Shown here piece by piece: positions 8,691 to 34,340 of a DNA stretch of 39,291 nt. Under the pieces are notes generated by a model. That model searched no databases. It saw only the letters and a list, made by a program, of their open reading frames with translations, and had not been told where the DNA came from. Numbering within the stretch: the first letter of the stretch is position 1; each line of letters starts with the position of its first letter. A program made the position numbers and the translations under genes. This stretch comes from Deltaproteobacteria bacterium (GTDB lineage Bacteria; Myxococcota_A; UBA9160; UBA4427): contig JAJDAN010000040.1 of the NCBI GenBank assembly GCA_029261855.1, forward strand, positions 1 to 39,291, in the 5' to 3' direction.

Positions 8691-8960
8691 CAGCTAGCAG
8701 CGCGGGGGGCAGACGCGCCGCCCACCCGCAGCAATCCGGAGCCAGCGGTCCCCGCCGCTGGCGCCCCACTCCATCCCATTCGGTCCTACCCGCTCATCCC
8801 ACTCGAGCCCACTCGGTCCTGGTCGGAAGGCGCGCCAGAGCCGGTTTCGGCCGCGCTCGGCGTTCGATGGGACCGGCGGCTGCGCAACCACCGGACGAAG
8901 GACACAAGACCTCGAGAAAGTTGTCGCGGTCGCGAATCAATTGCGAAATTCGGCCCAGAA

Positions 8961-9020
8961 AAAGTGGGATCGGGAGGCACAAAAGACTAGTCGGGTGGGA
9001 TTCATTGGTATAGAGTGGCC
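8961..9020 (+). promoter_or_regulatory. Putative MraZ operator and mraZ promoter
   Basis: Three TGG-containing pentamers with exact 10-base period, TGGGA (8996-9000), TGGTA (9006-9010) and TGGCC (9016-9020), match the TGGGN-N5 pattern bound by MraZ in enterobacteria, with weakening of the third and fourth positions. A further AAAGTGGGAT at 8961-8970 also fits the AAAGTG[GT] form of mollicute MraZ boxes. A -10-like TATAGA (9009-9014) lies inside the repeats, so bound MraZ would cover the promoter. The -35 is unclear. Autorepression of the cluster by MraZ is the family rule; its use here is inference. Confidence 0.6.
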
Positions 9021-9048
9021 CCGGATTGAAGGCGGCACATACCAAATC

Positions 9049-9501
9049 ATGTCTTTCCGAGGCCGCTTCGATCATACACTCGATAACAAGGGACGGGTAA
9101 GCGTCCCTGCGGGGTTCCGGATGGAGATCCAAAAGTTGGGTGGCGAGAAAGCGCCGATCCTGACTCGAGGCAAGGATCACCTCCTGCTCTATCCCGCCGA
9201 CACCTGGGACGAGATCGAGAAGAGTCTGGCCGCCAAGTCGAGCCTCCTTCCTCACGTCCAGAACTACCAGCGCTTCCTGATCGGCGGCTGCACCGAGTGC
9301 CCCGTCGATGGCCAGGGACGGATCACGATCCCGGCAGTACTTCGAGACCACGCAGGCTTGGAAGGCAAGATCACCCTGGCCGGCGTGTTGGACAAGATCG
9401 AGATCTGGAACAACGAACGGTTCGAGGCGGCACAGGCGCTCACCCTGGGCAACCTCGGGCAGATCCAGAAAGAGGTCGACGACAGTTCTTCCAGCTCGTA
9501 A
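9049..9501 (+). CDS. mraZ: Transcriptional regulator MraZ
   Basis: A 150-residue protein with two SpoVT/AbrB-like MraZ domains: FRGRFDHTLDNKGRVSVPAGFR at the N-terminus and CPVDGQGRITIPAVLRDHAGL at about 84-104, each with the DxKGR/DxQGR turn. MraZ forms a ring-shaped oligomer that binds direct repeats in front of its own gene and usually represses the dcw cluster. The ATG at 9049 is chosen because MSFRGRFDHTLD is the family's usual beginning; a weak purine stretch (GAAGGCGG) lies upstream. It is the first gene of the division and cell-wall cluster, but a terminator-like hairpin overlaps its stop codon and 234 bases separate it from rsmH, so most transcripts may end here. Confidence 0.95.
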   Translation: MSFRGRFDHTLDNKGRVSVPAGFRMEIQKLGGEKAPILTRGKDHLLLYPADTWDEIEKSLAAKSSLLPHVQNYQRFLIGGCTECPVDGQGRITIPAVLRDHAGLEGKITLAGVLDKIEIWNNERFEAAQALTLGNLGQIQKEVDDSSSSS

Positions 9502-9514
9502 GAGCTTGGTTTTT
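9491..9514 (+). terminator. Terminator-like hairpin with T5 tract overlapping the mraZ stop codon
   Basis: CC-AGCTC (9491-9497) pairs with GAGCT-t-GG (9502-9509, one bulged T) around a GTAA loop, and TTTTT follows at 9510-9514. The TAA stop of mraZ (9499-9501) forms most of the loop. The stem is short, so partial termination or attenuation is more likely than a complete block. Confidence 0.5.
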
Positions 9515-9520
9515 GGGGGG

Positions 9521-9720
9521 ATTGGAGAGGGCGACCTCTCCAATGGAAGAGGTAGGGGTCCCCGGGAGTCCACAGTACGGCTGTGGTGCGGTTACTGGGG
9601 GGTACGCACCACGGTTCGGATTCTCGGGGCACCCCACTCTTCTTTCTCTCTCTCTGAACGACTGGACGAGTCGAAGTCCTCTCACCTCCATCCCGTCTCC
9701 CAGGAGGCATCAAGACGGGA
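9521..9720 (+). promoter_or_regulatory. Structured leader between mraZ and rsmH (candidate regulatory RNA)
   Basis: No open frame is supported here, but the plus strand can form a series of strong folds. ATTGGAGAGG/CCTCTCCAAT (9521-9544) is a perfect 10-bp hairpin with a GCGA loop of the GNRA type. GGGGT-CCCCGGGAGTCC (9555-9571) pairs with GGATTCTCGGGG-c-ACCCC (9618-9635) as a 17-bp stem with one bulge and two G-U pairs. Inside it lie ACAG/CTGT (9572-9584) and GGTGCG/CGCACC (9585-9610), giving a three-way junction. A pyrimidine tract follows (9636-9655), then CGACT/AGTCG (9659-9673) and TCCCGTCT/AGACGGGA (9691-9720) with AGGAGG in its loop. The last arm overlaps the GGGAGG (9717-9722) in front of rsmH. 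An mraW RNA motif is known upstream of this gene in actinobacteria; whether this is related is unknown. Confidence 0.6.
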
Positions 9721-9735
9721 GGCGCCCCGCTCCTC

Positions 9736-10710
9736 GTGGCCAGCGAATTCGCTCATCGCCCCGTCCTTCTCCAAGAGAGCATTGGCTACTTGAACCTGAA
9801 GCCCGGTGGGGTCGTGGTGGACGGAACCCTGGGCGGCGGCGGACACGCCGAGGCCATCCTCGAGGGCATCGCGCCGAATGGGCTGCTCGTCGGCTTCGAC
9901 CTCGACCCGGACGCCCTGGCCGCAGCAACGGAGAGGCTCGTCGGATTCGGCGATCGCGTTCGCACGGTGAACGCCTCCTTCCGCGACCTCGTCCCCTGTC
10001 TCGCGGAGCTGGGTATCGAGGGCGTCGACGGCGTGCTGCTCGACCTCGGAGTCTCGTCGTTCCAACTCGACACAGCCGGGCGCGGCTTCCGCTTCGGCGG
10101 CACGGCCGAAGAGACCGCCGCCACGCCCCTCGACATGCGAATGGACCCGACCCGCGGTGAGACCGCGGCGGATCTGCTGCGCCGCGCGTCCGAGGCGCGA
10201 CTGCAGGAGACCTTCCAGAACTACGGGGAGCTTCCCGGCTCGAAGCGCCTGGCGCGCGCAATCGTCGAGGCACGGCGCGAAGCCCCGCTCGAGACCGCCG
10301 CGGACCTCCTCCGCGTCATCCAGGAAGCGCGAGTAGGGGGTGGTCGCCGTCATCACCCCGCGACGCGCGTCTTCCAGGCCCTGCGAATCGCCGTCAACGA
10401 CGAGCTGGGCGCACTGCGCGAGGGCCTCGATGCTGCCGTGACGGTGCTGCGCCCGGGCGGACGCGTGGTCGTGATCTCGTATCACTCGATGGAAGATCGC
10501 GTGGTCAAGAACCACTTCCGGGACGCGGCGAAGGGCTGCACCTGCCCTCCCCGTACCCCCGTTTGCGTCTGTGGTGGCAGCGTGACCCTGAAGGTCGTGA
10601 CCCGACGACCGGTGGTTCCCGCCGACGAAGAGAGCGCCGCCAACCCGCGCGCGCGCTCGGCTCATCTGCGCGCCGCGGAGCGCGTAGCGGCGGGAGGAGC
10701 GACGGCATGA
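9736..10710 (+). CDS. rsmH: 16S rRNA (cytosine(1402)-N(4))-methyltransferase RsmH
   Basis: A 324-residue SAM-dependent methyltransferase that modifies C1402 in the decoding centre of 16S rRNA. It starts HRPVLLQESIGYL, then VVDGTLGGGGHAEAIL (about 28-43, SAM-binding loop), LLDLGVSSFQLD, PLDMRMDP and SYHSMEDRVVKNHF near 247-260, with a Cys-rich CTCPPRTPVCVCG turn, all typical. Length matches the family. The GTG at 9736 is the only reasonable start in frame; GGGAGG at 9717-9722 is 13 bases upstream and may be partly hidden in a hairpin. An AGGAGG at 9702-9707 is too far away unless folding brings it closer. Its stop overlaps the ftsL start (ATGA). Confidence 0.97.
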   Translation: MASEFAHRPVLLQESIGYLNLKPGGVVVDGTLGGGGHAEAILEGIAPNGLLVGFDLDPDALAAATERLVGFGDRVRTVNASFRDLVPCLAELGIEGVDGVLLDLGVSSFQLDTAGRGFRFGGTAEETAATPLDMRMDPTRGETAADLLRRASEARLQETFQNYGELPGSKRLARAIVEARREAPLETAADLLRVIQEARVGGGRRHHPATRVFQALRIAVNDELGALREGLDAAVTVLRPGGRVVVISYHSMEDRVVKNHFRDAAKGCTCPPRTPVCVCGGSVTLKVVTRRPVVPADEESAANPRARSAHLRAAERVAAGGATA

Positions 10711-33770: not shown

Positions 33771-34190
33771 GGAGGTGGTCGGAGGATCGCCGGCGAACAC
33801 GAACCGTTCGCGGGAGGAAAGTCCGGGCTCCACAGGGTACGGAAGTCGGTAACGCCGACCCGGGGCGACCCGAGGGAAAGCGCAACAGAAATGACACCGC
33901 CGATGGCTTGCCGGGCGTCAGCCCGGTTCGCACAGGTAAGGGTGAAATCGTGGGGTAAGAGCCCACGCGCGACAGCCGGGAGACCGGCGGCGAGGCAAGC
34001 CCTTCCGGGAGCAAGCTCGAATAGGGGTGCTGTTGAGGGTGACCCGCCCAACGCCCTCGTCTTCGGACGAGACGCCAGCATCCGGGTGAGAGTGCTCGAG
34101 CGGCGCGGCAACGCGTCGCCTAGATGAATGATCCTCGCCGACGAGAGGGCAACCGACCGTCGGAACAGGACCCGGCTTACAGACCACTTC
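33771..34190 (+). ncRNA. rnpB: RNase P RNA, bacterial type A
   Basis: The catalytic RNA that trims the 5' ends of tRNA precursors, about 420 bases. The conserved core GAGGAAAGTCCGGGC (33814-33828) is unmistakable, and ACAGAAA (about 33888), GGTAAGGGTGAAA (about 33937), GGTAAGAGCCCAC (about 33955) and GATGAATGATC (about 34123) follow in the right order. The ends were set by helix P1: GAGGTGGTC at 33772-33780 pairs with GACCACTTC at 34182-34190, one G-U pair. CCGGCTTACAGACC before the end matches the conserved 3' core. Length and order fit the common A type. Ends could be off by a few bases. Confidence 0.95.
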
Positions 34191-34340
34191 GCGGCGCGCG
34201 CCAGCGCGCAGCGAACCCTCGAGAAGAAGCGAAAGCCACGCTCGGGGCGCTCCAGCGCTCGGCCGAAACGGTCGGAAGTCCGCCACCGCGGGCTTCCGAC
34301 CGACCAGCCCCAACACCGAGACCGGGCCAGGAGCCAGAAG
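34191..34340. other. Intergenic gap between convergent rnpB and N-acetyltransferase gene
   Basis: No gene is seen in these 150 bases. The gap contains a strong hairpin, listed separately, and a GCGCGCG/CGCGC-rich stretch right after rnpB. Confidence 0.6.
34269..34302. terminator. 13-bp hairpin between convergent genes
   Basis: CGGTCGGAAGTCC (34269-34281) pairs with GGGCTTCCGACCG (34290-34302), one G-U pair, loop GCCACCGC. It lies between convergent rnpB and the N-acetyltransferase gene and could stop both. A T tract is missing on either strand. Confidence 0.55.

Follow-up and report, generated by a model that had tools for sequence, protein, structure and literature searches.

The window, meaning the whole stretch of 39,291 nucleotides that was analysed, carries mraZ and rsmH (mraW) at the start of a division gene cluster in which genes for an FtsI-type transpeptidase, Mur ligases, MraY, MurB, an FtsQ-type protein and FtsZ are also present (Table 1). 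MraZ is known to control the division operon at its promoter, and probable MraZ boxes precede mraZ here. In 53 of 73 relatives, compared to 1.2% of shuffled sequences, the 140 nt preceding mraZ contain a TGGG-N6-TGG pattern, so such promoter control is probably already in place. No sigma-70 promoter-like site was found in positions 8850-9800.

The hairpin noted near the rsmH ribosome binding site in the initial annotation is present as a local hairpin around the Shine-Dalgarno sequence, and the predicted folds do not pair it with the structure upstream described below. In the window (9717-9738) and in relatives, the Shine-Dalgarno sequence occupies this small hairpin of its own, the GTG start is unusually distant (13 nt), and CCCC stands between the two in many relatives. 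A class A RNase P RNA gene (33771-34195, plus strand, 251 bits) was also observed some 23 kb past rsmH; the RNase P RNA of Pelagibacter adjoins mraZ (PMC2704228).

Table 1 Features at the mraZ-rsmH junction, in order along the window
Feature	Position	Strand	Basis or remark
Probable MraZ boxes, TGGGA-N5-TGGTA-N5-TGGCC, period 10	8996-9020	+	Upstream of mraZ; read in sequence
mraZ	9049-9501	+	Pfam MraZ, 1.2e-25
mraZ-rsmH gap	9502-9735	+	234 nt
Leader G-tract GGGGGG, just 3' of the mraZ stop	9515-9520	+	G-run of at least 5 before the rod in 62/72 distinct gaps
P0, peripheral hairpin, 10 bp, GCGA loop	9521-9544	+	Fold; stem varies in relatives with pairing kept, lost in a few
Core rod, region matched by covariance models	9545-9646	+	R1 72.5 bits; R2 70.8 bits
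P1, 5' strand (pairs with 9618-9635)	9555-9571	+	Covariation
P2, 5' strand (pairs with 9605-9612)	9583-9590	+	Fold and covariation; equivalent helix in other families
Apical loop, GGGGGG at 9597-9602	9591-9604	+	GGGGGG in 61/61 aligned relatives and four diverged copies
P2, 3' strand	9605-9612	+	Fold and covariation
P1, 3' strand, bulged C at 9630	9618-9635	+	Covariation
rsmH Shine-Dalgarno GGGAGG (9717-9722) in small local hairpin with CTCC (9730-9733)	9717-9733	+	Fold
rsmH (mraW)	9736-10710	+	Pfam Methyltransf_5, 2.5e-104

Fold and covariation of the gap

The strong plus-strand folding that had been described for the gap was borne out by comparison with shuffled sequences, as the MFE of positions 9490-9740 is -122.7 kcal/mol compared to -104.4 +/- 5.1 kcal/mol for shuffles (z = -3.57), and none of 200 shuffles was as good. 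The perfect 10-bp hairpin with a GCGA loop recorded in the initial annotation corresponds to P0 (ATTGGAGAGG-GCGA-CCTCTCCAAT), and the long stem recorded there corresponds to P1, which in the window sequence has 17 bp, one bulged C and two G-U pairs. The leader G-tract and P0 are frequent among relatives, but not universal. A three-way junction closed by P1 had also been proposed, whereas MFE and relatives favour a single stacked helix (P2) under a GGGGGG apical loop. Based on this MFE and comparative evidence, the element is one rod made up of P1, the stacked helix P2 and the apical GGGGGG loop. A CCACAG/CTGTGG hairpin is an alternative fold peculiar to the window sequence, and in most other families of the order 2-3 bp (P3) form beside the loop. 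One family (gaps L064, L067, L073, L077 and L101) has a second hairpin directly 3' of P1, CCCGGCGG...CCGTCGGG, without a U-tract.

Gap conservation and stem covariation among relatives, whose absence had been named as grounds for refutation, were both examined and gave the same gap, the same strand and strong covariation. In the set from the window's own family, double changes occur in 18 of 35 pairs and the signal collapses on sliding partners; across the order they occur in 17 of 22 pairs, and among 18 sequences drawn from other families in 15 of 26 pairs, with 97% of cells paired. The covariation score was reached by 0 of 500 shuffles in each of these three sets. The register of P2 is not recoverable in the 61-sequence alignment, and support for this helix therefore comes from two smaller sets. 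P3 shows covariation in families other than that of the window (25 of 43 compared to 10 expected; 0 of 2000 shuffles) and is unsupported in the window's own (2 of 29). Compensatory changes thus exceed those of column shuffles, as expected of a conserved structured RNA, and on these comparative grounds we conclude that such an RNA lies between mraZ and rsmH, inside the polycistronic message of the division operon.

The cells of P1 contain 110 G-U and 16 A-C combinations, compared to 148 G-U and 75 A-C in shuffles. This excess of G-U over A-C indicates selection on the plus-strand RNA and, together with the compensatory changes, agrees with the earlier suggestion of selection at the RNA level rather than on a DNA palindrome; a DNA cruciform was rejected on the same asymmetry. 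The GGGGGG loop is constant in all 61 aligned copies while the surrounding helices change, and the order-wide alignment also shows invariant GGGG and GUG words in P1.

Distribution within and beyond the order

Searching the DNA of relatives located the gap element in many genomes of the window's family. A covariance model built from 14 family relatives (R1) matches 68 of 80 genomes of the order, which we take from record names and background knowledge to be GTDB order UBA9160, and a broader model from 61 sequences (R2) matches 73. The match falls in the mraZ-rsmH gap, on the coding strand, at each of the 69 loci that show both genes. Both models were built from copies bearing GGGGGG and would be less apt to detect rods with a different loop. 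Among the seven genomes without an R2 match, two (G016 and G031) contain only an rsmH fragment, with the gap off the contig, and one (G073) has no rsmH match. The other four (G037, G040, G055 and G076) have diverged rods (L143-L146), located via rsmH rather than via R1 or R2 and judged by eye, that keep GGGGGG in the tip. The window genome has a single copy, at the operon. Two MAGs have two or three rods, each beside rsmH (G063 with L093, L096 and L104; G067 with L074 and L092), which would reflect either duplication or mixed bins; at L104, mraZ runs off the contig.

Outside the order, R2 found no match in 299 other Myxococcota genomes. In the sister family of the class there is almost no spacer between mraZ and rsmH (-7 to 8 nt), and most mraZ-rsmH gaps sampled in other Myxococcota are shorter than 60 nt. 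Three long gaps in other Myxococcota (L172, 275 nt; L173, 229 nt; L175, 173 nt) have strong hairpins without an R2 match, and these could possibly be further independent rods. When 84,980 genomes were scanned for an exact pattern, 24 matches were returned. Of these, 23 score with R2 and come mostly from MAGs named Myxococcota, Myxococcales or Deltaproteobacteria, including a MAG named 'UBA9160'; the remaining one (L124), inside an acyltransferase-like reading frame and without a model score, was set aside as chance. Viral contigs gave no exact pattern match.

Comparison with known RNAs

Rfam contains no match to the element, and the miRNA lines returned were attributed to chance. A literature search, with subscription papers and preprints outside its coverage, found no published description. 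The closest parallel is the mraW RNA (RF01746) of Actinobacteria, with which a comparison had been recommended in the initial annotation. Like the element, it lies in the mraZ-rsmH gap on the coding strand and forms one long rod, about 100 nt in length, whose apical word is invariant, and MraZ boxes precede mraZ at 6 of 8 mraW RNA loci examined, as in the order studied here. Among the differences, a transcription start falls inside the motif region in C. glutamicum (PMC3890552), and in C. diphtheriae the motif is upstream of the start (PMC5784534). Others are the apical word, which in genuine actinobacterial mraW RNAs is the invariant loop ACUUCCCC of a single rod rather than GGGGGG, the stem sequences and the phylum. 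With at least 50 bits set as the mark of membership, RF01746 gave no match at the gathering threshold, nor up to E 5 in the window gap or E 10 in six relatives, and the best score of R2 on eight mraW RNAs (L159-L166) was 14.4 bits, off the motif. Since the two models are mutually blind, the mraW RNA is a parallel in place and shape, and membership of the element in that family was rejected on this and on the different apical word. The initial annotation had also remarked that the organism does not look actinobacterial.

Other structured RNAs occur in division-operon messages. UpsM in the dcw 5' leader of Rhodobacteraceae is similarly lineage-restricted, but it precedes mraZ, has a Rho-independent terminator at its end and is released as an Hfq-bound sRNA (PMC5089854), whereas the rod lies 3' of the mraZ stop. 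The decRNAs of the enterobacterial mraZ-rsmH-ftsL-ftsI operon are also structured and stable RNA pieces, but they are embedded in coding sequence (mraZ, ftsL, ftsI and murE) and not in the mraZ-rsmH gap (PMC6156199).

Possible roles of the rod

A regulatory role of the rod is likely. With a probability of roughly 0.6, we favour a cis-acting element by which the message from rsmH onward would be controlled or processed, through a factor binding the GGGGGG loop. The long single rod would present the unpaired GGGGGG at its tip and serve as a binding platform, with the tip read by a trans-acting factor, perhaps a protein or a C-rich RNA. Binding in cis could then alter translation, processing or stability of the genes from rsmH onward, and these would be set separately from mraZ, whose promoter probably already carries MraZ boxes. 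The linkage of the rod to the mraZ-rsmH junction, on the same strand, is strict in every match examined for context. The initial annotation had suggested a leader for the whole operon; because the rod lies after mraZ, it would at most lead rsmH and the genes behind it.

Several intramolecular pairings were considered and rejected. In predicted folds the rod pairs with the rsmH Shine-Dalgarno sequence at a mean probability of only 0.04, which speaks against sequestration, while that sequence is paired locally at 0.68; a direct translational switch is therefore not visible. A kissing interaction of the GGGGGG loop with CCCC near the rsmH start was dismissed, as CCCC is common, yet absent in several groups that keep the G-run. 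Pairing of the leader G-tract with the 3' pyrimidine tract is not general (mean z of -0.39). A riboswitch is less likely because the element is rod-shaped without a conserved multi-branch core.

Alternatively, the rod could be a processing or stability hairpin for RNase III or RNase E that cuts mraZ off from the remainder of the message, with the loop serving only folding or nuclease recognition. P1 and P2 do form a long duplex exactly at a cistron boundary, and decay-resistant fragments are carved from the enterobacterial mraZ-rsmH-ftsL-ftsI operon (PMC6156199). This would account for the stem, but less well for the loop, as a passive duplex needs neither six invariant loop G nor invariant GGGG and GUG words in P1, and we regard such a role as rather unlikely. 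Excision of the rod, followed by action in trans through its G-rich tip as an sRNA or sponge, would fit the exposed invariant loop and has a precedent in Rhodobacter UpsM, a dcw leader that yields an sRNA (PMC5089854). It is nonetheless improbable given that the rod itself lacks promoter-like signals and conserved terminator-like ones, and that its strict linkage to mraZ and rsmH favours action in cis.

Transcription attenuation between mraZ and rsmH, intrinsic or Rho dependent, has even less in its favour. The pyrimidine tract noted in the initial annotation is real in the window, and a pyrimidine-rich stretch follows P1 in some genomes, but enrichment among relatives is mild (58% compared to 49% pyrimidine) and the U-tract is inconsistent. 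A Rho-independent terminator was rejected, as at least 5 T in 8 were seen in only 17 of the 60 tails that follow P1. The genes downstream of rsmH in the division operon are also mostly essential, which likewise argues against attenuation. Common descent with the mraW RNA, as a divergent member of that family, would explain the shared gap, strand, rod of about 100 nt and invariant apical word, but it is very unlikely in view of the model scores, the loop word and the lack of R2 matches in other Myxococcota. Hardly tenable is an element acting at the DNA level, as a cruciform or internal MraZ operator: TGGGG words recur in the leader, P1 and the loop, and MraZ boxes are GTGGGA repeats, but period-10 tandem boxes were not found in the window's gap, and the G-U over A-C asymmetry and compensatory changes point to RNA.

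A more speculative extension of the favoured loop-binding element would be that the GGGGGG-tipped rod of UBA9160 and the ACUUCCCC-tipped mraW rod arose independently as versions of one control scheme at this junction, with the loop read by a product of the operon such as MraZ or RsmH and feedback exerted on the message as well as the promoter. The DNA box of MraZ is TGGG-like, and the loops would resemble it, one in the sense and the other in a near-antisense orientation. We consider this a long shot.

We know of no account of the means by which rsmH and the essential genes that follow are set separately from mraZ. As the loop is invariant, a search for its partner by pull-down is directly feasible. 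The occurrence of an order-wide rod with an invariant tip, and of an actinobacterial rod unrelated to it at the corresponding junction, suggests that the boundary between mraZ and rsmH is a recurrent site of control at the RNA level.
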